Shown here: in pieces, positions 29,640-43,649 of the stretch
Numbering within the stretch: position 1 is the stretch's first letter
How the letters are laid out: each line of letters starts with the position of its first letter
NCBI GenBank assembly: GCA_000196815.1
Contig: FP929003.1
Location: 2,627,501-2,691,500, forward strand
From: Nitrospira defluvii
GTDB taxonomy: Bacteria > Nitrospirota > Nitrospiria > Nitrospirales > Nitrospiraceae
Reading direction: 5' to 3'
DNA: 64,000 nt
Translations under genes and position numbers: made by a program
Notes under the pieces: model-generated
What the model saw: the letters and a program-made list of their open reading frames with translations, nothing else
What the model was told of the DNA's origin: nothing
The model's database searches: none

Positions 29640-30203
29640 CTAGGCGAGGTTTCGGTTAATTGGCTGCACTTCACTCATATCGATATGGACAGTGGCCGCT
29701 TGCTGAATCAGATGCACACGGATAACCAGACAGTCCTGATTTGCCTTCCTAAGTAATTGTCCACGCAACCCTGTCAACGGGCCTCGCACCACTTCTACCC
29801 ATGCCCCTTCGGTCAGATAGTCGTGGCGCTCGAATGCACGCCGGCTTTCCGCTAGTTTCTGAATCGCCGCCACCTCCTCATCAGGAATGGATTCGGGAAT
29901 GAGCGATCCCACGATTCGGACAGTCCCAGGCGTTTGAAGCACGGCATGGCTGTTCATCAGCGAAAAGCGAGCGAAACAATAGCCTGAAAAGAGCGGGCTT
30001 TCGGTCCAAACCTTTCGATCCGTCCACTGGCTCAGTTTTTTCACCAACGGAAGAAACGGCTCAACACCGATGCCGGCCAGGCGATCCCGAACCAGCTTCT
30101 CGTGCCTGGAGCGTGTGCTGATAGCGTACCAGTGAAGATTTACTGCGGCATCGGCCGTCAGCGAATGCGGAGTGCGAGAACCAGATTGGATTGTGTTCAA
30201 CAT
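29640..30203 (-). CDS. NusG paralogue (RfaH/UpxY-like antiterminator)
   Basis: 187 residues. The NGN domain opens LHWYAISTRSRHEKLVRDRL and has VEPFLPLVKKL, SPLFSGYCFARFS and VRIVGSLIPE. The KOW region is GAWVEVVRGPLTGLRGQLL. Specialised NusG paralogues at the head of polysaccharide operons travel with RNA polymerase and prevent early termination over long operons. That fits its place as the first gene of a leftward run of almost 30 kb. ATG 30203 follows GAGGGCG. Confidence 0.9.
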   Translation of the reverse strand: MLNTIQSGSRTPHSLTADAAVNLHWYAISTRSRHEKLVRDRLAGIGVEPFLPLVKKLSQWTDRKVWTESPLFSGYCFARFSLMNSHAVLQTPGTVRIVGSLIPESIPDEEVAAIQKLAESRRAFERHDYLTEGAWVEVVRGPLTGLRGQLLRKANQDCLVIRVHLIQQAATVHIDMSEVQPINRNLA

Positions 30204-30387: not shown

Positions 30388-30735
30388 TCGTTTTCGCATC
30401 CCTATCTAGTGATACTCGTCATGAGAACCTAGAAAAATCACTAGCTGTCACACCCGTAGAAGCACACATGCACAATCTTGAACATCTCGACCGTTCCATA
30501 AATGAAGGATGCCCAATCCCGGCAAACCGAATCCCGGCAATGCTTTGCGGCGAACAATCTAATGAGATTTGCTCATTGCCTGAAGAGGAAGCGATGTGCG
30601 AATATGCGCCATGTAGGCACACTCCATCACACATTCGACCTAGTACTCGTTGCGTAGCTGTTTGATGAACTACGTAGAGACCTTTCGGATGTGTACCCTG
30701 CGACTCGCTGGGGCGCGTTTCACTCGGGAGGATCG

Positions 30736-31443
30736 ATGAGCAGAATCGTAGAAATACAAACCACCACCGTGGTCGCCATAGTCACGAACAACTATCTGCT
30801 CCGGCTCGGCCTGCAGAAGATCGTGGATGACGCGAAATGGATCCGGTTGGTTGGGCAGACTGCTCACGCAGGCAATCTTGACGAGATACTGACCAGCGAG
30901 CAGCCTCACATTGTCATTCTCGATACCGAAATCGGCGGCGCGGCGCCGGACTTGATTCAGCAGATCAAGCGAGTGGCACCGGGGGTCAAAACCATCCTGC
31001 TCAGCGGGTTCGATGATACTGAATGCACCCGGCAGGCGCTTGCTTCCGGAGTCGATGGCATTGTCCTCAAAGTGCAGCCATCCGCCGTACTCATTGCAAC
31101 CATCACCTATCTTGCCGACTCAGGCGGGGAAGTCGTATTGCCGATCGGCAACAGACCGACTCCGTTGAAATTGAGTCACACCCCGGCTCTCTCAACCGCA
31201 CCTCTCCCACCTCCCGCTCCCACTAAATGGTCGGACGGTTTGACGGAACGGGAACGTGAGGTGGTGCGATTAATCAGTGAAGGCCTTTCCAATAAAGACA
31301 TTGCAGATCGCCTGTGCATCTCCAGCATTACAGTCCGGCATCACCTTACCAGTATTTTCGACAAACTCGGCGTCTCCAACCGCCAGAAGCTCCTTATCAG
31401 AGCGCACCAGCAGGGGCTGGTAGGATCGCCTGCTCTGGCGTAA
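30736..31443 (+). CDS. NarL/LuxR-family response regulator with degenerate receiver
   Basis: 235 residues: a receiver domain (about 10-125), a proline-rich linker, and a LuxR-type helix-turn-helix near the C-terminus (LTEREREVVRLISEGLSNKD then HHLTSIFDKLGVSNRQKL). The phosphoacceptor Asp63 (VILDTEIGG), Ser90 and Lys112 are present. The acidic pair that binds Mg2+ at the N-terminal end of strand 1 is replaced by Thr17-Asn18 (VAIVTNN), so normal phosphorylation is doubtful. ATG 30736 follows GGGAGG. It is divergent from the NusG-like gene and probably regulates the polysaccharide locus, the export locus, or both. The following 273 bases (31444-31716) hold no gene. Confidence 0.88.
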   Translation: MSRIVEIQTTTVVAIVTNNYLLRLGLQKIVDDAKWIRLVGQTAHAGNLDEILTSEQPHIVILDTEIGGAAPDLIQQIKRVAPGVKTILLSGFDDTECTRQALASGVDGIVLKVQPSAVLIATITYLADSGGEVVLPIGNRPTPLKLSHTPALSTAPLPPPAPTKWSDGLTEREREVVRLISEGLSNKDIADRLCISSITVRHHLTSIFDKLGVSNRQKLLIRAHQQGLVGSPALA

Positions 31444-31716: not shown

Positions 31717-33054
31717 TCAGCTGAGTTTATCAAGCTCTCCTAATGCCCGCGCGAGGTTCACGCGGGCACCATTGAGCCGAAACATTGCATCCACCGTATT
31801 GTCCCTCGCCCGGGAGAGGCTATACAAAGCATTCGTCACTTCGAAATTGCTGCCGGCGGTGAGAACCGTAAACCGCTCCTTCGCGAGGGCCAACTCTTTC
31901 ATTGCTGCCTGCAGACCGACCTGAGAAATCGCCAACTGTTCCTTCGCAGACGACAAGGTCACAAGGGCTTCCCGAACGTCCAACACGACTTGGTTGCTGA
32001 CGACCCGCATGCGAATGGTTTCCTGGTTGACTTGACTCCGCGACTCGCTGATTCGGCCTTCGCGCGCGCCGTCGAAGAGGGGAACCGTGAGGAACAACCC
32101 GATGTTATACGTATCCAGCGTATTGTGCATCCGGTTCCCGATGAGTCCGTAATCCCCTTGCGCCGCCAGGGAGGGGATGCGTTCGGTTTCCGTTGAATTC
32201 AAAGTTAAGGAGGCCGTCTTAATGCGTTGCTGTTGCGCTTTGACTTCCATCCGCTGATTCATCGCGACGGTCACGGCTTCATCAATGGTCGGTGGTTCCA
32301 ACACTTCCAGCTTCAATGCATCAGTGAGCGTCAAACGGACATCGAAAGCAAACCCCAACCCATGTAGAATGTTCACCTTGAGTCGCTCTACTTCGTAGCG
32401 AGCGGCAGCCAATTGTTGACGCTCATTTTCCAACTGCGCCTCAAGTCTGGCCGTATCAAGTCCCGTCCCCATGCCGCCCCCGCGTCTGCTCCGCGCCAGC
32501 TCCAGCAGCTCCTCAAAGAGACGCATATTCGCGTTCCTGGTATTCACGGTCGCTTCGGCCTTGAGAGTCTCGATATACAGCAGCCCGACTGCGGACATGG
32601 TGTCAAATTTGGTCGTTTCCGACTCCAGCTCAGCCACCTTGAGAGCTTCTCGAGAGGCGCGCCACCGTTGGATCAAACTCAGACTGAACAGCGACTGGGA
32701 GACATTCGCCCGGGCATCAAAGATACTGAAAGGATCTGTGCGGACGGGCGCCAAACCAATCGTCCCGAGAAATATGTTCTGCCTCGTCTGGCGCACGTTG
32801 GTCGAGAGATTAGGCAACAGCGCACCCAATTGTGTCTTGCTCGCGGCGCGCGCGGTTTCGATCCGCTCTTTGAGCAATCGCACATTTGGATTGTTGTCGA
32901 CGGCGGCCTCCATAGCCTCCCTAAGGCTGAGGCGCAATTCCGGCAAGGGATCCGGTACCGAGCCTCCCGGTTGCGCCTGTGCAGAAACTCCGCTGAGCAA
33001 CAGAATCGAGAAAATCATCGCCATCACGTCTCGCCGCTTCTCATACATCTTCAT
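31717..33054 (-). CDS. TolC-family outer-membrane factor
   Basis: 445 residues: a signal peptide (about 1-27, ending SAQAQ) and two outer-membrane-efflux-protein repeats. These include LSLREAMEAAVDNNPNVRLL, ASKTQLGALLPNLST and, in the second half, AQGDYGLIGNRMHNT and NIGLFLTVPLFDG, the usual TolC beta/alpha pattern. It should form the outer-membrane channel of the export system encoded upstream. ATG 33054 follows GGTGG. It is the last gene of the block and ends facing the LuxR-type gene. An eight-base inverted repeat (31663-31670 with 31714-31721) spans its stop codon. Confidence 0.9.
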   Translation of the reverse strand: MKMYEKRRDVMAMIFSILLLSGVSAQAQPGGSVPDPLPELRLSLREAMEAAVDNNPNVRLLKERIETARAASKTQLGALLPNLSTNVRQTRQNIFLGTIGLAPVRTDPFSIFDARANVSQSLFSLSLIQRWRASREALKVAELESETTKFDTMSAVGLLYIETLKAEATVNTRNANMRLFEELLELARSRRGGGMGTGLDTARLEAQLENERQQLAAARYEVERLKVNILHGLGFAFDVRLTLTDALKLEVLEPPTIDEAVTVAMNQRMEVKAQQQRIKTASLTLNSTETERIPSLAAQGDYGLIGNRMHNTLDTYNIGLFLTVPLFDGAREGRISESRSQVNQETIRMRVVSNQVVLDVREALVTLSSAKEQLAISQVGLQAAMKELALAKERFTVLTAGSNFEVTNALYSLSRARDNTVDAMFRLNGARVNLARALGELDKLS

Positions 33055-33196
33055 ACGATCCACCTTTCTCCTTGCCTCATGAACGCGGAGCCCTGACATA
33101 CGAGTACAGGTATAAGCCTCATTCGGACAGCCTACTCCGCCGCCGTTGATGTTGTCTTGCTTAAGGAAGCGGAAAGGTGACTGATGAGGCGGGGAA

Positions 33197-34042
33197 CTAA
33201 TGCACGGCAAACCGGACTGTGCAGGAAAGCCCAGCCGGTATCTTATAGTCCGGGTTTGGAAGTTCAAGCAGCACTTCAAAGGTACCGCTGGCACTGTTGA
33301 TGACCGGATTGACTACCGTCACGCGAGCCCGATGCAGGTCCGGTGAGGCCCATTCCAATCGCACGTCTCCCTCCATCCCGGCAGTAATTTTTCCAAGCCA
33401 GGATACAGGGGCAAGTACCTCCACGATCAACGGATCGAGCCGGGCCAACTTCATGATCGGAGCCTGCTTGACCAACTCACCGGGAGAGAGAAACCGCTCC
33501 ACCACCACTCCTGTAATGGGACTACGGACGGTCCGCAACTCCAGCGCCGCCTTCGCACGATCCAATTCAAGTTGCGCGACCCGCTTATTCTCCAACGCCT
33601 CGATATGGGCAACTTGCGCAAGTCGTTCATCTGTTTCGGCTTCATCCACTTCGTGGTGCGCCATAGCGGATGTCTTGCCCAAATCTTTTGCACGGACAGA
33701 CTTCCTCAGACTGAACTCGGCTTTCATTTGGGTGCTTTTCTCTGCCGCATCCATCTCGGCCTTCGCCTTGGCCAACGCAACTTCGGCCTGCTCCAAACTT
33801 GATTCAATCGTGGCCAGGACATCACCTTCCTTGACCACATCCCCCTGATTCACCGCCACGCTGCTCAGCACACCGACGACCGGTGTTCCCACGGTGAGCG
33901 TGACCTGCGGCACTACGAGACACGATAGCTCGGACTTTGCTTCAACCAATCCTGCAGAAAACCCGAGTAGTACGACGCAGAGGAATCGAACCATGGACAC
34001 GGCTAATCGACTGGTCGCGCGTTTGTTTCCAATAAAGATCAT
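33197..34042 (-). CDS. Small HlyD/RND-type periplasmic adaptor
   Basis: 281 residues: a signal peptide (about 1-35), a barrel-sandwich half-motif (VGVLSSVAVNQGDVVKEGDV), an alpha-helical hairpin (about 75-145), the returning half (VRSPITGVVVERFLSPGELV) and a beta-barrel. This is the layout of periplasmic adaptors that link an inner-membrane machine to TolC. It shares its design and the odd motif LSCLV-x-P (Cys41) with the adaptor at 36199. The start is uncertain: ATG 34042 is used, with GTG 34078 or ATG 33994 as alternatives. No pump of the RND or ABC type is nearby. Confidence 0.85.
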   Translation of the reverse strand: MIFIGNKRATSRLAVSMVRFLCVVLLGFSAGLVEAKSELSCLVVPQVTLTVGTPVVGVLSSVAVNQGDVVKEGDVLATIESSLEQAEVALAKAKAEMDAAEKSTQMKAEFSLRKSVRAKDLGKTSAMAHHEVDEAETDERLAQVAHIEALENKRVAQLELDRAKAALELRTVRSPITGVVVERFLSPGELVKQAPIMKLARLDPLIVEVLAPVSWLGKITAGMEGDVRLEWASPDLHRARVTVVNPVINSASGTFEVLLELPNPDYKIPAGLSCTVRFAVH

Positions 34043-34126
34043 GTGTTCTTTGTCGCCATGTTCTTGTTTTGGGTCCACCTGAGGAGCGGCAAGCCGGCAC
34101 TCCGGCCGCTTGCCGCTCCCTGCCCG

Positions 34127-36136
34127 TTAGATCATCGGGGCCGGCGGAACTTTGACGATATACACATCGCGTCGTCCACTGGCATTACCCCAGTTGCTGG
34201 TAAAGGCGATAAACTGCCCGTCGCGACTGATATTCGCCTTGGGCTGATCGTAATAATCGTTTACCACACTTCGGTGATGCGCGAGCCGTCTCACCTGATT
34301 GCTGCCGTTAGTGGCCACTAACACGATTTCATTGTCAAACGTTTTGGCAACTCCACTCCCGGTCGTGGAATAGCGGCTGGCCAGTCCCCACCCTTCATTG
34401 TCGGCCAACATCGAGAAATGGTCCTGCTGGTTGTTCGGACCATACCACCAGTAGCCAGGAACGAGGGCGTTCATGACCGTAGGCGAGGACAATTGCCGAA
34501 ATTGTAGTGCGCCGCCCCCGTTTGCTGTAAGGAGGTTCCCAAATCCTGCATCACGGTGAAAAAATCCCAGGCTCCCCGTCAGAGTAGCAGTGAGCTTTGG
34601 ACCCCCTTGAAGGTCCCAAATCTCATCGTGACCATCTCGATAGACAGCCATAAAGTAACGGCCAGATTTGTCGACGTTTACCTCATCAAGATTGCTTACA
34701 AGATTCCGGAGCAAAACCGTATCAGTACTCCTTTTGTACACGACATACCCGACCGTGGATCCGCCACTGTTCACGATAGAGGCGGAAAATACATCATCGT
34801 TCAGGCTCTTCGACATCTGTGTGATATAGCCTCCGGCCCCGTAGGACGTCAGATCCTTAACAAGCGTCGCCTGTTGAGTCGAAACGTCGATCTGCCAGAT
34901 CTTGTTCTGGCCAACCCCGAATGTCACTTGGGAATTGACGCCGCTCCAAACCAAACCATACTCCTGCAATCCAGATGGGGGCTTGCTCAGAACAAATCCA
35001 CCACTAGACGAAAAATTCACCGGATCAAACGCATAGAACTTTGCCCGTTTTGGTCCAAGCGTTTCAACCGCCATGACATAGGTGTTGTTTTTGTTAAAGG
35101 AAGGGACGGTGCTGTATTGAACTGAAGCATCCGTGCTGCCGTCCCGACCGTCGGTTAGACGCAAAATCGTCGTGCCGAAGGTCGGATCAATGATTTTTGA
35201 ACCAGAAGAAGGCAAAGATGGCAACGCTGGCTCCTTATACACACCAAAATCGGTTTTGATGCTGCCACTGGTGGTAGTCGTCGTAGGGGTTGTTGTCGTC
35301 GGGGTCGTCGTTGTTGAGGTGCTCCCATCCGTATACACCCGATAGGTGTAGGAGCGGCCATTCGTCAACGGATTGGAGTTGTCTGACGCGGAGAAATAGA
35401 GCGCATTTCCCCAGTGGCTGAATCGACCACCACCCTGTGTTCGAATATCTGCATGCACTGAATGCGCCGGTCCCAGTTCCTGCCCGTTTTCATAAATCCG
35501 TAATTTCGACACGGTCGGTGCGGCATTCGAGTCCCCGGTGGTCCCGAAATTCTGTGACACATAGTAGGCATACCCTGAATTATGGGACGCCTGTCCAATG
35601 TTAATCGCGCCCTGCACATAGGAAGACGTCGTCGTCGAGGTACTCCCATCCGTATACACCCGATAGGTGTAGGAGCGGCCATTCGTCAACGGATTGGAGT
35701 TGTCTGACGCGGAGAAATAGAGCTCATTTCCCCAGTGGCTAAATCGACCATCACCCTGTGTTCGAATATCCGCATGCAGTGAATGCGCCGGCCCCAGTTC
35801 CTGCCCGTTCTCATAAATCCGCAATTTCGACACGGTCGGTGCAGCATTCGAGTCCCCGGTGGTCCCGAAATTCTGTGACACATAGTAGGCATACCCCGAA
35901 TTATGGGACGCCTGCCCAATGTTAATCGCCCCTTCTGTATACTGTTCCTGCACGACCGCCGCCTGCAGTGTCACACTTGCCAGGTCACCGGCCAACAGCA
36001 CCCGCGCTTCGAGCTGCTCCATCCTGAAGGGAGAGGCGCGCTTCGTGCGCCGCCGTTTGGAGAGAGCCTCTTTGCGTCCTCTTCTCTCGTTCGATAAAAA
36101 CTCGCGCAACTTCGAGAAATATCCGCTATCCCTCAT
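34127..36136 (-). CDS. LEPR-XLL-like surface/secreted protein with tandem repeats and TolB-like propeller
   Basis: 669 residues. A very basic N-terminus (RRGRKEALSKRRRTKRA) leads to RMEQLEARVLLAGD (about 38-51), which matches the LEPR-XLL motif of large surface proteins with Ala for Pro. No classical signal peptide is seen. Two 107-residue repeats follow (69-175 and 176-about 282), then a threonine/proline-rich linker, then a beta-propeller (about 300-669) ending in a TolB-like blade (SRDGQFIAFTSNWG, then DVYIVKVP). ATG 36136 follows GGGGAGG. It is embedded between adaptor genes of the export block and is probably the cargo. Function is unknown. Confidence 0.8.
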   Translation of the reverse strand: MRDSGYFSKLREFLSNERRGRKEALSKRRRTKRASPFRMEQLEARVLLAGDLASVTLQAAVVQEQYTEGAINIGQASHNSGYAYYVSQNFGTTGDSNAAPTVSKLRIYENGQELGPAHSLHADIRTQGDGRFSHWGNELYFSASDNSNPLTNGRSYTYRVYTDGSTSTTTSSYVQGAINIGQASHNSGYAYYVSQNFGTTGDSNAAPTVSKLRIYENGQELGPAHSVHADIRTQGGGRFSHWGNALYFSASDNSNPLTNGRSYTYRVYTDGSTSTTTTPTTTTPTTTTTSGSIKTDFGVYKEPALPSLPSSGSKIIDPTFGTTILRLTDGRDGSTDASVQYSTVPSFNKNNTYVMAVETLGPKRAKFYAFDPVNFSSSGGFVLSKPPSGLQEYGLVWSGVNSQVTFGVGQNKIWQIDVSTQQATLVKDLTSYGAGGYITQMSKSLNDDVFSASIVNSGGSTVGYVVYKRSTDTVLLRNLVSNLDEVNVDKSGRYFMAVYRDGHDEIWDLQGGPKLTATLTGSLGFFHRDAGFGNLLTANGGGALQFRQLSSPTVMNALVPGYWWYGPNNQQDHFSMLADNEGWGLASRYSTTGSGVAKTFDNEIVLVATNGSNQVRRLAHHRSVVNDYYDQPKANISRDGQFIAFTSNWGNASGRRDVYIVKVPPAPMI
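35291..35932 (-). repeat. Two tandem 321-bp coding repeats
   Basis: Unit 1 is 35612-35932 and unit 2 about 35291-35611, each encoding a 107-residue block that begins GAINIGQASHNSGYAYYVSQ. By eye the two differ by only a handful of bases (for example Leu/Val, Asp/Gly and Glu/Ala changes), apart from the last few codons, so the duplication is recent or kept uniform by recombination. The units are in frame, so copy number can change without breaking the gene. Confidence 0.9.
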
Positions 36137-36198
36137 CACTGACCTCCCCTCTTGGTAAAGAAAATGTGACTCTATTGCATTGACACCGACACGCTGCA

Positions 36199-36870
36199 CT
36201 ACTTACTGCCCGGCACAACCATGGAACACTTCAGCCCGGCCGCCAACTTCAAGTCCGGATTGGGCAATTCCAGGCGGACACCAAATGTCCCGCTGGCGGC
36301 ATCCACGACACGATCCACCACTGTCACGACGGCTTTATACGTCCCGCTGACCGGCGCTTCAGGCTTCACGTGCATTTCCATGCCGACGGTAATCTTTCCA
36401 AGTAAGGACACGGGCACATAGGCCTCGACGCGAAGCGGGTTAATCTGAGCCAGTCGCATGATGCGCTCCTGCTTCGGGAATTCCCCCGGCGACATGTAGC
36501 GTTCGACTACGACCCCGTTGATCGGGCTTCGAATCGTCCTCAACCCAACTTCAGCCGAAGTCCGCTGCAATTCAAGATCCGCCAGCCGTCGATTCGTCAA
36601 CTCGGCCTGAGCATGCGCGACGGCACCGGTCGCCCGTTCCAAACTCGTATCGAGAACGGCGAGAATTTGCCCCTCCTTCACGAGATCCCCTCGATCCACG
36701 GCCACCGTTTCCAGCAACCCCCCGACCGGACTGGTGATGGTAATGACGACGTACGGCTGGATCAGACAGCTCAACTCGGCCGCCTGTGAGACGCCGGGGG
36801 CCGACAGCAGAAGAAGGCTTCCAATCCAAGCGGCGGACAGACTGTATGACGTAAATGTTTTTACACGCAT
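36199..36870 (-). CDS. Short HlyD/RND-type periplasmic adaptor
   Basis: 223 residues: a signal peptide (cut near SQA, residue 30), barrel-sandwich halves VGGLLETVAVDRGDLVKEGQ and IRSPINGVVVERYMSPGEF, and a beta-barrel with VSLLGKITVGMEMHVKPEA. The helical hairpin is much shorter than in the paralogue at 33197, so the two may take different positions in one complex. Both carry a Cys in the mature N-terminus (ELSCLI-x-P). The gene begins nine bases after the SecA-like stop and is followed by the cargo-like gene after 62 bases. Confidence 0.85.
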   Translation of the reverse strand: MRVKTFTSYSLSAAWIGSLLLLSAPGVSQAAELSCLIQPYVVITITSPVGGLLETVAVDRGDLVKEGQILAVLDTSLERATGAVAHAQAELTNRRLADLELQRTSAEVGLRTIRSPINGVVVERYMSPGEFPKQERIMRLAQINPLRVEAYVPVSLLGKITVGMEMHVKPEAPVSGTYKAVVTVVDRVVDAASGTFGVRLELPNPDLKLAAGLKCSMVVPGSK

Positions 36871-36879
36871 GGCATGTTC

Positions 36880-38871
36880 CTATTCCGAACGACCGGTGAA
36901 TGCGAGGGTGGAATCCAACTGCTCATCCATTTTCATGACCGCTCGACGCATCCGAGCCTGCAGCCGCTCCGCACGCTGCTGAGCTCGCCAACAAAAGAAG
37001 TTCCCGAGCCATTGAGGAATGCGGGCGCCGAGGCAACCGAGCATCCCCCTGAGTCTCCGTCCGACCGATCCACCATGGTCGACGAACAACTGATCGTCCA
37101 GGGAGAGAATCGTTTGATAGGTCCCCGGATCGCCCTGACGTCCACAGCGTCCGAACAGTTGGCGATCGATACGACCGGAGTCATGGCGTTCCGTCGCAAT
37201 GACATGGAGTCCACCCCGCGCAACCACATCCGGATCGAGACGGATATCAGTTCCTCGCCCTGCCATGTTCGTCGCCACGGTAATACGCCCCGACTCGGCG
37301 GCCCGACTGATGACGGCAGCCTCGTCCCGATCCTGCCGAGCATTGAGGACCTGATGCTCAAGCCCTGCGCCACCCAGCAAGCGGCTGAGATGCTCTGAAG
37401 CCGCGACCGTCCGCGTGCCGACGAGCACCGGTCTGCCCTGCTGTGTCATGTCTGCGATAGATCGGACGACCGCCTGCCACTTGTCGTCGGCCCTGACATA
37501 GACCTGATCCACGATCCTTCGCCGCCTCAGAGGGCGATTCGATGGAACACGGACCACTCCGAGGCGATAGACAGACCATAGTTCACGCGCCACCTCCTGC
37601 GCGGTTCCGGTCATCCCCGCGAGACGCAAATAGCGGCGGAAGAATCGCTGATAGCTGATTCGGGCCAGGGTGCTCTGATGATTGTCCAGCGGGCAGGCTT
37701 CTTTGGTCTGAATCATCTGGTGGAGACCGTGTTCCCAAGACCGATCAGGCATCAGGCGACCGGTGTACTCATCGATGATCTGCACCTTGGATTCCTGTAC
37801 CAGATACTGCTGGTCGCGGTGAAACAGATGGAGTGCGATCAACGCCTGGTGCACGAGGGCCTCACGACGACGACGCCCGCGCCACAACCCGCCAAAGGCA
37901 GTGGCAAGTTCCGTCGTGCGCGTCTCCCCTGACGGCTGTACTCGTACGGTCCGCTCTCCGCGGTCGACGATGAAATCACGTCCCTCTACCAACTGCCGGG
38001 CCATGTGCAACGCCTGCTCGTACGCCTTATGTTCAGCGGCATTGTCTGTACAACGCGCAATGACCAGCGGTGTCTTGGCTTCGTCGATCAGCACGCTGTC
38101 CGCCTCATCGACGATCGCATACTGCAGGCCCCGCAGCAGAAAATCAGTCGATCGCGTGTGACTCCGGTGGAGACGGTCGAGATGCACCTGCAGCCGATTC
38201 GACGCTGTCCCGACAAGAATCCGGTCTTTCAAATAATCGAACACCAACTCTTTGCCGGTACAGTAGGTGATGTCGCAGGCATACGCGGCCTGTCGTTCCG
38301 ACGGTGTCATCCCCTGCACTATCGTTCCCACTGAAAGGCCCAATGACTCGTAGACGGGCCTCATCAGATCCGCATCGCGGGCCGCCAGATAGTCGTTGAC
38401 CGTGACGATATGAACCGGGAGACCGGCGAGTGCCGCAGTGCAGGCCGGGAGCGTCGCGGTCAACGTCTTGCCCTCGCCGGTTTCCATCTCCGCCACTCGA
38501 CCGGTCAACAAGATCCACCCTCCGACGAGTTGCACATCGAAATGGCGCATTCCGATCGTCCGCGCGGCGACTTCACGCACCAGCGCGAATGCTTTCGCTG
38601 CCAGCGCGGGGCGAAATCCTGTCTTGGTCAAGGACGCGCGCAGGTCCTGCGCCATGGACTTCACACCCTCTTCGCGCAGCCGGGCACATTCGACGCCGGC
38701 CGCGGCGACCTGCTGCACCCAGTGCTCCCGCCGGACGACCGACGCACGCAGACGGCGAAGAACCGGAGCCACGGCGGCTTGCGCCCAACGATCCAACTTT
38801 CCTGCCTGAGCGGCCGAGCGCTCAGGGTACGCCAGTCCTCGTATGGTCGACAGTCCCAATGATCTAGACAT
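36880..38871 (-). CDS. Short SecA-family ATPase paralogue
   Basis: 663 residues. SecA DEAD-motor motifs are all present: Walker A region AEMETGEGKTL (Lys135), VDEADSVLIDEA (DEAD 255-258), a preprotein-binding-domain-like segment between the motor halves, LAGMTGTAQE (about 418-426), TNMAGRGTDIRL (about 534-545) and GRCGRQGDPG (574-583). It stops soon after the second motor domain, so the scaffold/wing end, C-terminal linker and zinc finger of housekeeping SecA (usually 800-900 residues) are reduced or missing. ATG 38871 overlaps the stop of the M50 gene by eight bases. It is the only ATPase in the block and probably drives export of the LEPR-XLL-like protein. Confidence 0.85.
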   Translation of the reverse strand: MSRSLGLSTIRGLAYPERSAAQAGKLDRWAQAAVAPVLRRLRASVVRREHWVQQVAAAGVECARLREEGVKSMAQDLRASLTKTGFRPALAAKAFALVREVAARTIGMRHFDVQLVGGWILLTGRVAEMETGEGKTLTATLPACTAALAGLPVHIVTVNDYLAARDADLMRPVYESLGLSVGTIVQGMTPSERQAAYACDITYCTGKELVFDYLKDRILVGTASNRLQVHLDRLHRSHTRSTDFLLRGLQYAIVDEADSVLIDEAKTPLVIARCTDNAAEHKAYEQALHMARQLVEGRDFIVDRGERTVRVQPSGETRTTELATAFGGLWRGRRRREALVHQALIALHLFHRDQQYLVQESKVQIIDEYTGRLMPDRSWEHGLHQMIQTKEACPLDNHQSTLARISYQRFFRRYLRLAGMTGTAQEVARELWSVYRLGVVRVPSNRPLRRRRIVDQVYVRADDKWQAVVRSIADMTQQGRPVLVGTRTVAASEHLSRLLGGAGLEHQVLNARQDRDEAAVISRAAESGRITVATNMAGRGTDIRLDPDVVARGGLHVIATERHDSGRIDRQLFGRCGRQGDPGTYQTILSLDDQLFVDHGGSVGRRLRGMLGCLGARIPQWLGNFFCWRAQQRAERLQARMRRAVMKMDEQLDSTLAFTGRSE

Positions 38872-41011
38872 TGAATCGCGCCAAAAAGAGTTGCCGGACC
38901 TGCCGAGTCCACTGCGCAGACAGGGGCATCCATCCGTGATGAAACCGCACATAGGCTCGACCGCCGGCATCCATCAATCCCATGGAGTTGGCCAGGGTGA
39001 GATCAGCCTGAAAAAACCGGCCCATCGCCGTGAGCCCTTTCTCGTCCGACGGCTCCAGCGGAACTTGTCCTCCGCCCTGACTTCCCAGCGCCGCACTAGG
39101 CAGTTGCTTCGTCGCCGCCGGCACGAGGCGGACAAGAGCCGCCGGCTGGGTCGCCGGCAACCGTTCGGCCAGACGCACATCGACTGATTCGAGCTGGTAC
39201 CGGACCAGATCGATTTCTCCCTGTGGCACCACGGTCCGTACGGTGACGGTGCGCAGATCCAACACCTGTCCCATGAGATCACCTTGGCGGACATATTTAC
39301 CGGGGAAATCCTCAGCACGTGTCGTGACGAAGGTCCCGGCTTGTTTGCTCCGTACGACCAGGCGATCCACACGTTCGCGAATACGGTCACGTTCTTGGGT
39401 CACGTACTTCGTCTCTTCTTCAATGATGGCAGCCTTTGTCCTATCGTTCGGTTCCTGCTCCGTGTGACGCGCCTTGAGTTCTTGAAGCCGGGAGTTTAAT
39501 ACGTTCAGCTGCGCACGCAGGTCGGCGTTCCGGCAGATGAACAGCACGTCGCCGGCCCGCACCTGGGAACCCGGTGTCGCCACCACTTGCGTCACGAATC
39601 CCTCGGTTTCCGCCCGGACCATCGCATCATCGGACAGCCAGACGATGCCCTCCGTCACGGTACGGAACGGCACGGGAACAAACCCGACCGCTCCCACCAA
39701 CGCCGCACCCAGACAGACCACCGTGACTACGGCCCGTGCACGAACGAGATGCAGTCGCGGACTCGTGAACAGATAGGTCGCGCCCTTGACCACCGGCACC
39801 ACCACCATCATGACCCCGGTAGATATTGCGAAGAGGATGGCCACCGGCGGAAACTGATCGCCCAAAAACAGGAGAATGCCGACGACCACCAGGATGCGAT
39901 AGAGGGACGAGGCGGTCCCGTACAGCACAAACCAGACCCGTTCACCGGCGGTTGCATGCGGCATTTCCGCCTCTGGCTGCCACAGGAGATAGCGCTCCGC
40001 CAGGTAGGAAAAATACCGGCCGGCCCGATGCTTCATGTTCGGAATTTCCACATAGTCCATGAGCATGTAGTAGCCATCAAACCGCAGCAAGGGATTGGCA
40101 TTGAACAACACGGTGGAGATGCCGGCAATCAGGATCGTGTTATACGCCAGCACCCGCACGATGCCGGGCTCCGCATTAATCCACACGATCAGCGCCAGGG
40201 AAGCCAGCGCCAGTTCGACCATCATGCCGGCCGCGCTCACAAGAATACGTTGCCACTTGCTCCGGAATCCCCACGCCCCGGTGGTTTCAACATAGGGGAC
40301 GGGGGTAAAGACCAGCAGCATCACTCCGAGTTCATGCACTTCCGCGCCGAACGCCTTCGCCATGAAGCCGTGTCCCAACTCATGGCACAGCTTTAACAGA
40401 GGGAACAACAGCCACAACAACACCAGATTCTGCGGCGCCAGCGCCTGATCCGAGAAATCGTGGAACAGAGCCGTCCAGTATGTCCCGCCCCATAACAGTC
40501 CCATCCCGACGAGTGCCCCCCACAACAACAGCCCCGGCAGACTGATAAGAGGACGCACGAGGGGAAGGAATCGCGCCAGAAATCGGTCCGGGTCGCACAG
40601 GGGCATGCGCCAGGAGAATATGTTCGCCAGCCTGGTATATCGTTTTCGGCGCACCTGCGTAGCCGACCGCTTCGATAACTCGACCATGTCAGGCGGTGCA
40701 TCGAAGAACAGGGCATCGCTCGTATGAAGTTGACTGATCAGGCCGATGACATCGTTCTGGGTCGGTGCCTCGTCGCCCAACCGTTCGCTCGCCTGCTCCC
40801 AGATTTCCTGGACCGTGCGGCGTCCGTCCATCAAACCGATGAGACCGTACGCTTCGGGCGAGAAGCGGTGGAACTGATCGGTCGCGAGATCCTGCAGGAC
40901 GTACCAAGTCTGTCCACGGTATTGATGCCGATGCACGCGCAGGTGGCTGCGAAGTCTCGGTTTCAACCTTTCGACCCGGTACCACGATGGACTGAAAAAC
41001 GATTCCGCCAC
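38864..41011 (-). CDS. PqqD-like / M50 site-2 protease / HlyD adaptor fusion
   Basis: 715 residues with three parts. Residues about 20-105 look like a PqqD domain (VLQDLATDQFHRFSPEAYGL, then LMDGRRTVQEIWEQ). Residues about 145-430 are a polytopic M50 metalloprotease with HELGH at 210-214 and the third ligand Asp312 in NANPLLRFDGYYMLMDY. Residues about 430-715 are a HlyD-type barrel-sandwich with coiled coil (VRAETEGFVTQVVATPGSQV, then EETKYVTQERDRIRERV). It sits between the GAF-HlyD and SecA-like genes. PqqD-like domains bind leader peptides in other systems, so it may recognise and cut the cargo's N-terminus; that is inference. Confidence 0.85.
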   Translation of the reverse strand: MAESFFSPSWYRVERLKPRLRSHLRVHRHQYRGQTWYVLQDLATDQFHRFSPEAYGLIGLMDGRRTVQEIWEQASERLGDEAPTQNDVIGLISQLHTSDALFFDAPPDMVELSKRSATQVRRKRYTRLANIFSWRMPLCDPDRFLARFLPLVRPLISLPGLLLWGALVGMGLLWGGTYWTALFHDFSDQALAPQNLVLLWLLFPLLKLCHELGHGFMAKAFGAEVHELGVMLLVFTPVPYVETTGAWGFRSKWQRILVSAAGMMVELALASLALIVWINAEPGIVRVLAYNTILIAGISTVLFNANPLLRFDGYYMLMDYVEIPNMKHRAGRYFSYLAERYLLWQPEAEMPHATAGERVWFVLYGTASSLYRILVVVGILLFLGDQFPPVAILFAISTGVMMVVVPVVKGATYLFTSPRLHLVRARAVVTVVCLGAALVGAVGFVPVPFRTVTEGIVWLSDDAMVRAETEGFVTQVVATPGSQVRAGDVLFICRNADLRAQLNVLNSRLQELKARHTEQEPNDRTKAAIIEEETKYVTQERDRIRERVDRLVVRSKQAGTFVTTRAEDFPGKYVRQGDLMGQVLDLRTVTVRTVVPQGEIDLVRYQLESVDVRLAERLPATQPAALVRLVPAATKQLPSAALGSQGGGQVPLEPSDEKGLTAMGRFFQADLTLANSMGLMDAGGRAYVRFHHGWMPLSAQWTRQVRQLFLARFNV

Positions 41012-41023
41012 TACATCTCCTTG

Positions 41024-42490
41024 TCAGGGAAGCCACGCCCACAGTTTCAACCGCAGCCATTCCATCGCGTCATGTGTCCAGATCCAGGACAGAAGCCGCC
41101 GGTCGATGGTGATCTTGCCGACGCCTTCCATGGCGGGCCTGAGTTGCGAGGGCTTCGTCAGGAACCGGCCTTCGACACGAAAGAAATTTCTTCCCTCCTG
41201 AGCGGTCGATACCGGAGTGATCTTCGCGACCTCGAACGGGAGCAGCTCCTGCGGTAGTGCCGACAACCGAAGATCGCCGGACTGGCCGACCGCGACATGC
41301 CCGATGTCCCGCTCATCCACCTGCAGCACGATCCGATAGGTATCCAGCGGGGCCACCTCAAAGAGCACTTTGCCCTCTTCCACCGGCGCATCCAGTTGCT
41401 GACTCAAATCGCCGGAGACCACCACGCCCGCAAAAGGTGCGACGATCTGGGTCCGCGAGAGCTTATCCGCGGCGAGATCGAGTTGTGCCTGCACCTGCCG
41501 CAATTGAGCGCTGAGGATTTCGGCTTTCGGCGCATTGCGCTCAGCGAGTGCCTGCCGCTGCTCCTTCGCCAGTTGCTCGCGCTCGTTCAGGCGCTTCAGA
41601 CGTTCCAACTGGAGATCTCGATCCTGCAGCGTGGCCAACACCTGTCCGGCTTTCACGACATCACCGGCCCGGGCCGGTGCGGTGTGTATATAGCCCTGGA
41701 AGGGCGCTGCCGCCACCCGCTGCACCTCGCCCTCCAACACCGCTTTCGACGTCACGCGAAATTCACTCGCACTTGTGAGAAACCATGCGCCCAGGGCCGC
41801 GATCAGCAGAAGGGAGAGTTTCACCCCCAGATGGCCGGCCCCGATCACCGTGCCGATGTGTCGCCGGACGCTCTCCCAGATTTTGATCGGCAACGCACGA
41901 TCATGCTGGCGCTTTAAGTCGAGCGCGGGCCCGATCAATGCCGCCATGGCTTCGCACAACTCGACCGTGAACCTGTCAAATAATTGTTCGCCGCCGCGCT
42001 CGCAGGTCAAAACGCCGACGATCCTGCCGTGGGCCCATAGGGGAAACGAACAGACGGACGCCGCGCCGTAGCGCCGGCGAAGCTCGTCATGAGCGCGCGT
42101 GCTTTGCGCCGGCCATCCGACCGGGGCGGGCACAAGGACCGTCTGTTGCTGATCGACCGCTTCCTCCATCGAAGCAGTGATCGCATTCAGAAGATCCGTC
42201 TTGTGGTTGAACTGGGCGCTGTGCGACAGCGCTTGCACACGAAGTTCGTTACGAGTCGCGATGCCGAGACTGACTCGATCGCACGCTAATCGGCTGGCCA
42301 AGGCAGTCACCACTGCCGAGGTAGATCCGGTGAATCGTTCAGGCTCCAGGGCCAGGGCCGTCATGTCAAGCACGGCCTTGAGTGATTCAAGGGGCAACTT
42401 ATGTAGGTCGGCGGAAGACTCGCTCTCTAGGGGCGACGGACTTAGTACCGGAGCCCCTTCCGCGACGTTCTGCTTATTAAAATCAGTCAT
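41024..42490 (-). CDS. GAF-domain HlyD-family membrane fusion protein
   Basis: 488 residues. A cytoplasmic GAF-like domain (about 35-190, with DRVSLGIATRNELRVQALSH and ASVCSFPLWAHGRIVGVLTC) is followed by one membrane helix (about 222-241) and a periplasmic HlyD unit. The HlyD unit has the first lipoyl-like half VAAAPFQGYIHTAPARAGDV, a coiled coil (about 290-345), the second half IVAPFAGVVVSGDLSQQLD and a beta-barrel. It is the first gene of the export block, twelve bases before the M50 fusion gene. The GAF domain may sense a small ligand or hold another protein on the cytoplasmic side. No clear ribosome-binding site precedes the ATG. Confidence 0.88.
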   Translation of the reverse strand: MTDFNKQNVAEGAPVLSPSPLESESSADLHKLPLESLKAVLDMTALALEPERFTGSTSAVVTALASRLACDRVSLGIATRNELRVQALSHSAQFNHKTDLLNAITASMEEAVDQQQTVLVPAPVGWPAQSTRAHDELRRRYGAASVCSFPLWAHGRIVGVLTCERGGEQLFDRFTVELCEAMAALIGPALDLKRQHDRALPIKIWESVRRHIGTVIGAGHLGVKLSLLLIAALGAWFLTSASEFRVTSKAVLEGEVQRVAAAPFQGYIHTAPARAGDVVKAGQVLATLQDRDLQLERLKRLNEREQLAKEQRQALAERNAPKAEILSAQLRQVQAQLDLAADKLSRTQIVAPFAGVVVSGDLSQQLDAPVEEGKVLFEVAPLDTYRIVLQVDERDIGHVAVGQSGDLRLSALPQELLPFEVAKITPVSTAQEGRNFFRVEGRFLTKPSQLRPAMEGVGKITIDRRLLSWIWTHDAMEWLRLKLWAWLP

Positions 42491-42630: not shown

Positions 42631-43399
42631 GATGTAAAAATGGCCTAGGAGCGAAGGCTTACCTAGGTACGACTCCCAGTAACCACATATCCTACGTATT
42701 CCACCTCTATCGATTGACCGACCACAATGCACGGTACTGCGTGACCATCCGCGCACGGCCCAGTCCGTCGATCAACGGCCACGGGCACGGAGCGGAAACG
42801 AGCGAAGGCGCGCGAAACGTGTACACGCGGTTCTTGTTGGGGGCGGCGTGAATCGGGACGTGACAAACCCGGCGCCGCCGAACACTCGCACACCAAACGC
42901 GGGAGCTCGCAGGATGTTATGAGCACCGTGCTTGTCACTTGATCGCCGAGCGGCTTTCGAAAGCGGCGACGATAGACTTCACGTACATACGTTGTGAAGA
43001 TGATGCTCACCCGCCGAATACTGTCATACCCGCTTCGCGCAATCCCTGCCGTTCGATCCTCGCCAATTCCGCATGCTCCCGCACCATGGTCCCGCGGCCA
43101 TTCCGGCAACAACTCGCCAATGCCGCTCGACCTGATGCAACGTTTGGATCGAGGAGACACACGATCGTCAAGCGAGAATCAGTGGAGGACTATCCGATCG
43201 CTCGGGAGCAGTGATGAAGATCTTACGGCCGGAACAAGCAAGAGGATCGAAGACCGCCGAAGGTGTCTATCCGGCGGCAACCAGGGAAAGACCGCGTTCG
43301 AAAAGCCGCCCGTAGGCGCGAGGACGTACGAAAGAACGACTGAAGGGTTTACTCTTCCGCCAACAACAATGAAGGAGGCTCGTGATGGAGAAAGACTTG

Positions 43400-43426
43400 T
43401 TTGGAGCGGGCGATGGGATTTGAACC
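43400..43426. repeat. 27-bp direct copy of the tRNA-Gly 3' end (possible attachment-site remnant)
   Basis: 43400-43426 is identical to 43573-43599, which covers the acceptor 3' strand, CCA end and half of the T arm of the tRNA-Gly gene. The copies are 173 bases apart in the same orientation. Duplicated tRNA 3' ends are the usual trace of site-specific integration, but only about 150 bases lie between them here. Confidence 0.7.
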
Positions 43427-43474
43427 ACACTCCGTCGCCGGGTCGGCCCTGAGGCCTGCCTCCCGGCTCCCACT

Positions 43475-43525
43475 GAGGGGGCCAGCCCCCTCGTGTCTCC
43501 CCACGAAGGGAGCATACTCCCTTCG
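43475..43525. repeat. Paired perfect hairpins beside the tRNA gene
   Basis: Hairpin 1 (43475-43492) pairs GAGGGGGC with GCCCCCTC across a CA loop. Hairpin 2 (43504-43525) pairs CGAAGGGAG with CTCCCTTCG across a CATA loop. Right after them, 43534-43554 on the plus strand repeats most of the tRNA T arm in inverted orientation (TGTCGTGG then TTCAAATC, one mismatch). The layout recalls REP-like or MITE-like elements. Confidence 0.6.
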
Positions 43526-43574
43526 AAACCCTCTGTCGTGGATTCAAATCTACTGAATGTTGAATTGGAATTTT

Positions 43575-43649
43575 GGAGCGGGCGATGGGATTTGAACCCA
43601 CGACAACTTGCTTGGGAAGCAAGGACTCTACCACTGAGCTACGCCCGCC
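43575..43649 (-). tRNA. tRNA-Gly (anticodon CCC)
   Basis: A complete cloverleaf on the minus strand: acceptor GCGGGCG pairs with CGCCCGC, the D arm holds AGCTCAGTGGTAGAG, the anticodon stem CTTGC/GCAAG encloses TTCCCAA with anticodon CCC (43615-43617), and the T arm reads GTGGGTTCAAATCCCAT. Discriminator T and an encoded CCA end at 43575. It lies between the export block and tyrS. Confidence 0.95.

Follow-up and report, generated by a model that had tools for sequence, protein, structure and literature searches.

How a protein that bears the LEPR-XLL motif leaves the cell, when no hydrophobic signal core precedes that motif, is the question raised by a gene of Nitrospira defluvii (34127-36136, minus strand). 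It lies in the 64,000-nucleotide stretch of DNA analysed here, referred to as the window. LEPR-XLL marks very large proteins, with frames reaching ~15,000 aa among the genomes searched. An earlier note on this DNA described the export route of such proteins as unsettled, and this remains a fair description, as no stated route was found in open PubMed Central papers. In the portions of this literature that are accessible, LEPR-XLL receives only incidental mentions (PMC10868602, PMC9611531), and no paper was found that links it to an export system (including PMC6461901 and PMC11573180). The sole match for the combination of SecA, M50, HlyD, and TolC (PMC8277102) does not contain M50, LEPR, or PqqD as whole words within 300,000 characters of its text. 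A family name exists for each part and LEPR-XLL is a named motif; no paper bringing them together was found in open PubMed Central.

The cargo protein and its leader

The open minus-strand frame spans 34127..36199. The start is placed at the ATG at 36136, behind a strong ribosome-binding sequence (AGGGGAGGTCAGTG), which yields a protein of 669 aa (34127..36136) without cysteines. Its layout comprises a basic leader (residues 1-40; 36017..36136, minus strand), the motif QLEARVLLAGD (residues 41-51; 35984..36016, minus strand), two 106-aa repeats, a Thr-rich linker, and a C-terminal part. Both features that the earlier note had read from the letters were recovered. The motif follows an Arg/Lys-rich stretch, with 14 K/R against 5 D/E upstream of LEARVLL, and no hydrophobic signal core precedes it, the highest 12-residue Kyte-Doolittle mean being -0.23. 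Across residues 1-80 the peak rises to 1.82, so the motif and the residues downstream of it show mild hydrophobicity. The operon's HlyD and TolC proteins peak at 2.0-2.6 within their first 120 residues. Judged by hydropathy, the cargo lacks the signal-peptide core of a Sec substrate ahead of its motif.

Family assignment rests on NCBIfam NF012209 (LEPR-8K, LEPR-XLL), which residues 37-58 match at 19.2 bits against a cut-off of 17. The pattern LExRxLL[AS] occurs within the first 120 residues in one of the 163 window frames of at least 100 aa, with 0.01 expected from residue shuffling, and the motif therefore exceeds chance. Pfam PF07595 (planctomycete extracellular) matches the same residues below its gathering score (14.2 vs 25.5 bits). 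In the cargo ortholog of a same-genus genome (G143), residues 32-53 are identical and 10 of residues 1-31 differ. The two adjacent repeats (35303-35941) agree at 100 of 106 positions, which suggests a recent duplication or recombination. Searches with the cargo sequence gave neither a Pfam domain over cut-off nor a relative in the PDB, and a pattern search detected no GGxGxD repeats. An AlphaFold model built from a two-row alignment was unusable (pLDDT 36), and no fold is claimed.

Organization of the operon

The cargo gene belongs to an operon that runs from 42490 to 31717 on the minus strand. It begins with a 488-aa GAF-HlyD adaptor (41024..42490; Pfam GAF and HlyD_3), followed by a 715-aa fusion of a PqqD/RRE-like domain, an M50 metalloprotease, and HlyD (38864..41011; assigned by Pfam, NCBIfam, profile search, and structure model), referred to below as M50-HlyD. 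The ATG of a 663-aa SecA paralogue (36880..38871; longest frame 36880-38970) overlaps the M50-HlyD stop. Next come a 223-aa HlyD adaptor with a hydrophobic, signal-like start (36199..36870; Pfam and hydropathy), the LEPR-XLL gene itself, a 293-aa HlyD adaptor (33197..34078; Pfam), and a TolC-type outer-membrane channel (31717..33294; Pfam OEP, 133.9 bits). The channel measures 525 aa in its longest frame; its start is uncertain, with 33054 being plausible. The operon thus contains the HlyD and TolC components of type I secretion (HlyD_3, HlyD_D23, and OEP), and a motif search found no ABC ATPase in the window.

Just beyond the TolC gene lie an UpxY-family antiterminator (29640-30203, minus strand) and a LuxR-type response regulator (30691-31443, plus strand), which may act as regulators of this long operon. 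Window frames 42663-43160 and 43179-43634 gave no Pfam match.

Similar neighborhoods occur on plasmids. NZ_CP049813.1 (PLSDB) carries a 31.8-kb gene annotated as 'LEPR-XLL domain-containing protein', DUF3467, an adaptor, 'PqqD family', a 'DEAD/DEAH box helicase', and a further adaptor, in the same gene order as in the cassette; by position, the helicase is the cassette SecA. Plasmid CP081100.1 encodes an adaptor, M50, and SecA, and no LEPR gene is annotated in the 36.9 kb shown. In two alphaproteobacterial plasmid cassettes, a DUF3467 gene (L196:17863-18144 and L197:17744-18064) separates the giant gene from the first adaptor. An extra frame of ~265-288 aa separates M50-HlyD from SecA in four alphaproteobacterial loci (L091, L092, L097, and L114). 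In two Sulfuritalea loci, the cassette SecA is followed on its own strand, after 2.3 kb, by an ABC-ATPase-like frame of ~595 aa (L063:16475-18271 and L065:11285-13072).

The M50-HlyD fusion

The protease part of the fusion carries HExxH at residue 210 and N.NPLLRFDG at residue 304, and it scores above the Pfam M50 threshold (PF02163, 29.8 vs 27.2 bits). Across 49 aligned M50-HlyD rows, HExxH and N.NP....D are unchanged. Its nearest named families, in both cassette types described below, are the daptide and YydH/LiaK metalloproteases of RiPP maturation, all under their cut-offs; for the daptide model NF041824, the window fusion reaches 154.2 of 300 bits.

The structure model of M50-HlyD (mean pLDDT 86) places a winged-helix-like domain at the N-terminus. 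Residues 17-102 match PqqD 3g2b by profile (E 0.0012), and the Pfam PqqD gathering score is just missed (22.7 vs 23.4 bits). Superposition of model residues 16-105 with TbiB1 in complex with its leader (5v1v) gives Z 10.3 and rmsd 2.8 over 86 residues of an 88-residue chain, although entries that are not RREs tie with this result (8hkr at Z 10.5 and GdmN entries at Z 10.2-10.3). The fold is accordingly of the PqqD/RRE winged-helix type, with the same tie attached, and the modeled domain looks similar to RiPP recognition elements (RREs), which bind leaders. A Foldseek search with the whole model returned adaptor-type chains among the 50 matches listed; RRE-like rows were present only in a second search, whose listed matches fell mostly on residues 445-702. 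Neither list includes an M50 structure, which carries no weight.

Co-occurrence of LEPR-XLL and M50-HlyD

The link between motif and cassette was examined in four samples totaling 864 genomes: Nitrospirota (158), Gammaproteobacteria (229), Alphaproteobacteria (220), and Desulfobacterota (257), to which Desulfoluna (G188) belongs. For LEPR, matches above the family cut-off were counted, at E <= 0.05 in Nitrospirota and E <= 0.01 elsewhere. For M50-HlyD, the threshold in Nitrospirota was E <= 1e-10, so that the 24 genomes counted include the weak G022 and G154; in Gammaproteobacteria it was set at E <= 1e-40 because the 80 obtained at 1e-10 include plain HlyD adaptors.

Nitrospirota yielded 17 genomes with LEPR, 24 with M50-HlyD, and 16 with both. 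The corresponding numbers were 20, 31, and 17 in Gammaproteobacteria, 5, 11, and 2 in Alphaproteobacteria, and 12, 15, and 9 in Desulfobacterota. Pooled, M50-HlyD is present in 44 of the 54 LEPR genomes, with 6.24 expected within samples. One-sided Fisher tests, which ignore relatedness among genomes that are not phylogenetically independent within samples, gave 3.6e-15, 1.2e-14, 0.02, and 8.8e-11 in the same order. At genus level in Nitrospirota, all four genera with LEPR over cut-off fall among the 6 of 77 that have M50-HlyD. In the converse direction, the search started from 50 of the 80 M50-HlyD loci kept from the contig scan described below; of the 48 genomes to which these led, 41 have LEPR-XLL over cut-off, with frames of up to 14,390 aa.

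The two genes also lie close together. In Nitrospirota, 18 of 24 LEPR places share a contig with M50-HlyD, all 18 within 10 kb. Gammaproteobacteria likewise show 24 places, 11 of them sharing a contig: eight genes end less than 10 kb away, two are 13-15 kb distant, and one is 610 kb distant. Across both samples, 26 of the 29 places on a shared contig are thus within 10 kb.

Two cassette types with matching motif flavours

The N. defluvii genome (one contig, 4,317,083 bases) contains only one other LEPR-XLL match over cut-off, a 2,063-aa DUF4347/cadherin protein with the motif LEQRLMFDAAA. Its gene adjoins another M50-HlyD, two HlyD-type proteins, and TolC (L004, C1:3092391-3104811). This second M50-HlyD shares 28% identity with the window copy over 466 positions, and SecA was not seen in the 20 kb examined.

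The two loci exemplify two cassette types. Type A, to which the window belongs, has a SecA without wing/scaffold and a cargo motif of the form LExRxLL(S/A); type B is without SecA and its cargo motif is LExRLMFDAA. A contig scan with the M50-HlyD alignment detected at least 573 relatives, of which 80 loci were kept. A FastTree tree of 133 M50-HlyD rows separates clade A (103 rows) from clade B (30 rows). SecA adjoins M50-HlyD in 93 of 99 decidable clade A rows, four rows being undecidable, and in 0 of 30 clade B rows. Among the six clade A rows scored as SecA-less, one is a false miss in which the frame is present (L083), one is a real exception (L068), and L166, L169, L183, and L186 have only ~1.5 kb of flank each. 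The sample of G188 follows the same division, as its seven loci at E <= 1e-240 all have SecA and 11 weaker loci have none within ~1.5 kb. The 'SecA/M50-HlyD pair' with which the earlier note associated LEPR-XLL proteins hence holds for type A and fails for type B. SecA as a general cassette part is ruled out, since type B lacks a local copy.

In 76 of the 80 loci kept from at least 573 matches, M50-HlyD is followed downstream by a SecA frame at a distance of ~1 kb or less; three of the other four loci have fewer than 400 bases of sequence remaining. Seven of the 158 Nitrospirota genomes encode two SecAs, and these are exactly the seven that have type A M50-HlyD; the second SecA adjoins M50-HlyD in all seven. 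The window protein has SecA_DEAD, PP_bind, and P-loop domains with an intact Walker A. The wing/scaffold SecA_SW (PF07516) found no match at E 0.01 in the 13 of 13 cassette SecAs scanned; the housekeeping SecA, by contrast, possesses this domain. Against B. subtilis SecA (chain 1m6n, 802 residues), the alignment of the cassette SecA extends only as far as residue 603. The nearest solved structures are SecA2 chains.

Leader sequences follow the same partition, with the type of each start assigned by the motif itself. The 42 non-redundant type A starts read LE(P)R-x-L-L/F-S/A; position 8 is S in 36 of them and position 10 is D in 32. LExRxxFD is present in 19 of 19 type B starts. Only one of the 42 type A leaders and none of the 19 type B leaders has a hydrophobic core before the motif (12-residue mean > 1.6). 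Motif flavour and cassette clade agree in all 33 loci that show both, 15 of them type A and 18 type B; most type A loci do not show the cargo start. Before counting, 18 duplicate loci, 24 ids of the flavour-versus-clade comparison, and the chance motifs of L100 and L166 were dropped; L002 was treated as a fragment of the type B locus of its own genome and not as type A.

In four type B cargos (L004, L044, L047, and L050), a hydrophobic stretch near the C-terminus is followed by charged residues (such as TLSVGFVLWAVRKGRLL). Going by its sequence, this stretch is possibly a membrane stop that anchors the protein.

Exceptions to the association

M50-HlyD was not found in 10 of the 54 LEPR genomes (G073, G281, G325, G418, G489, G615, G634, G734, G742, and G787), four of which were searched twice (G073, G281, G325, and G418). 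Four of the ten may be chance matches, with frames of 32-115 aa (G634 32 aa, G073 40 aa, G325 99 aa, and G742 115 aa); these were kept in the counts. The longer exceptions are G734 (1,420 and 4,641 aa), G418 (7,373 aa), G281, G489, G615, and G787. In G418, no cassette was found in the 16 kb upstream of the LEPR frame, which itself reaches the contig end, so that the downstream side is unseen. The control genome, Deinobacterium chartae, also gives a LEPR-XLL match.

On the other side, 37 of the 81 M50-HlyD genomes are without LEPR over cut-off. Inspection of 23 of these revealed a low-scoring type B motif beside the cassette in nine (4 of 8 Nitrospirota and 5 of 15 elsewhere). Such variants (ALEPRMMFDAAG, ELEARIAFDAAG, and KLEQRVVLDAAA, beside type B cassettes L217, L218, L220, L225, and L230) fall below the NF012209 cut-off. 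In the other 14, the motif was not seen in the fetched stretch, including L227 and L231, where SecA is adjacent. Alphaproteobacteria back the association weakly, with M50-HlyD in two of five LEPR genomes, and adjacent SecA is missing in 10 of their 11 M50-HlyD loci within the flank available. Overall, the association between LEPR-XLL and the cassette is well supported. The suggestion of the earlier note that the LEPR-XLL protein is cargo of the export block is strengthened by the excess of genomes with both, with the ten LEPR genomes that have no M50-HlyD counting against it.

Proposed mechanism and alternative explanations

We propose, with a probability of roughly 0.7, that LEPR-XLL acts as an N-terminal leader by which a dedicated export cassette of the TolC type recognizes its protein cargo. 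As the motif usually accompanies one export gene set, the leader is probably an address label read by a little-studied secretion machine. The RRE-like fold with its PqqD match, the conserved M50 motifs, and the kinship with RiPP proteases lead us to propose leader binding and cleavage; SecA as motor and the TolC route are likewise inferred. The cargo would carry a basic leader that is not hydrophobic and ends in LExRxLL(S/A)A(D). This leader would be bound in the inner membrane by the PqqD-like (RRE) domain of M50-HlyD, as RREs do with RiPP leaders, and the zinc M50 site would probably cut the chain close to the motif. The SecA without wing/scaffold would push the chain in type A cassettes. 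In both types, the chain would exit through the HlyD adaptors and TolC. Confidence in this model is lowered by the ties in the RRE superposition and by the 14 loci without a visible motif.

Other explanations draw on the same components. Under type I secretion, the cargo would be exported by ABC-HlyD-TolC through a C-terminal signal, and LEPR-XLL would serve as a retention or anchoring element. The operon does supply HlyD and TolC, yet motif flavour tracks the M50-HlyD clade, the window shows no ABC ATPase by motif, and an ABC-like frame occurs in only 3 of the 80 loci kept from at least 573 matches, outside the cassette genes. RTX repeats are common, not universal, in type I cargo, and the window cargo is without GGxGxD. 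In favour of type I secretion, at least two such repeats occur in 7 of 74 motif frames (a redundant set, cut at locus ends), L063 and L065 have an ABC-like frame at a distance of 2.3 kb from the cassette, and a Vibrio LEPR-XLL protein has a C-terminal RTX (PMC10868602). We consider this explanation unlikely.

A variant of the Sec pathway appears rather unlikely as well. Here, the cargo would pass through SecYEG, the truncated SecA would be a specialised SecA2, and M50-HlyD would act later as an RseP-like signal-peptide peptidase or in quality control. The SecA core domains with their intact Walker A and the SecA2 chains as nearest solved structures agree with it, and type B, having no local SecA, could employ the housekeeping Sec machinery. 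The S2P protease RseP removes signal peptides, according to the accessible part of one report (PMC8144685). Yet the hydrophobic core that this pathway would read is absent before the motif in the window cargo and in nearly all leaders of both types, and the wing/scaffold present in the housekeeping copy is missing from every cassette SecA scanned. Less probable still is a RiPP-like system whose true product is a small peptide, with the LEPR-XLL protein as a chance neighbor or regulator. The RRE-like, M50, and HlyD set resembles RiPP machinery, but the linked LEPR genes mostly encode hundreds to thousands of residues and the co-occurrence spans several phyla.

The export-leader reading extends to a wider one, for which the chances seem evenly balanced. 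The cassette would then be a distinct secretion system, widespread in Proteobacteria, Desulfobacterota, and Nitrospirota, for one-step TolC-dependent export of giant surface proteins, with a wing-less SecA supplying power in type A, an RRE domain reading the LEPR-XLL leader, and an intramembrane protease releasing it. If true, RiPP-style leader recognition would extend to proteins as long as ~15,000 residues, and joint divergence of motif and receptor would have produced two orthogonal channels. The model would also imply that export through TolC can dispense with an ABC, RND, or MFS pump. In practical terms, the link between motif and cassette makes the exit route of giant LEPR-XLL proteins testable, and it supplies a small cargo for this purpose.

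Comparison with known systems

The cargo shares the N-terminal motif of NF012209 proteins over cut-off, and at 669 aa it contrasts with the frames of thousands of residues in many relatives. The same residues match PF07595, a related motif best known from Planctomycetes, under its cut-off; in the accessible parts of two papers, that motif is used as a planctomycete cell-surface signal (PMC8567305) and as a signal class (PMC10952558).

Like an accessory SecA2, the cassette SecA is an additional copy that has the DEAD, preprotein-binding, and P-loop domains. It differs in stopping before the wing/scaffold, and its matches to four SecA2 models all stay under cut-off. The fusion aligns to the daptide model NF041824 over residues 18-410, covering the PqqD-like and M50 parts (154 of 300 cut-off bits), and to the YydH/LiaK model NF058609 over 194-327 (39 of 225). 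Unlike these proteases, it has an HlyD domain, and its cargo is a large protein. The link between motif and cassette suggests that a type of leader-reading domain familiar from peptide natural products also steers giant proteins.

With type I secretion, the cassette has HlyD adaptors and a TolC channel in common. In place of an ABC transporter, the operon has the M50-HlyD fusion with its PqqD-like domain as the inner-membrane part; the cassette adds a SecA paralogue in type A, and an N-terminal motif replaces the C-terminal signal. The cassette would work like a TolC-type exporter, yet by the ABC criterion it is not a type I system.
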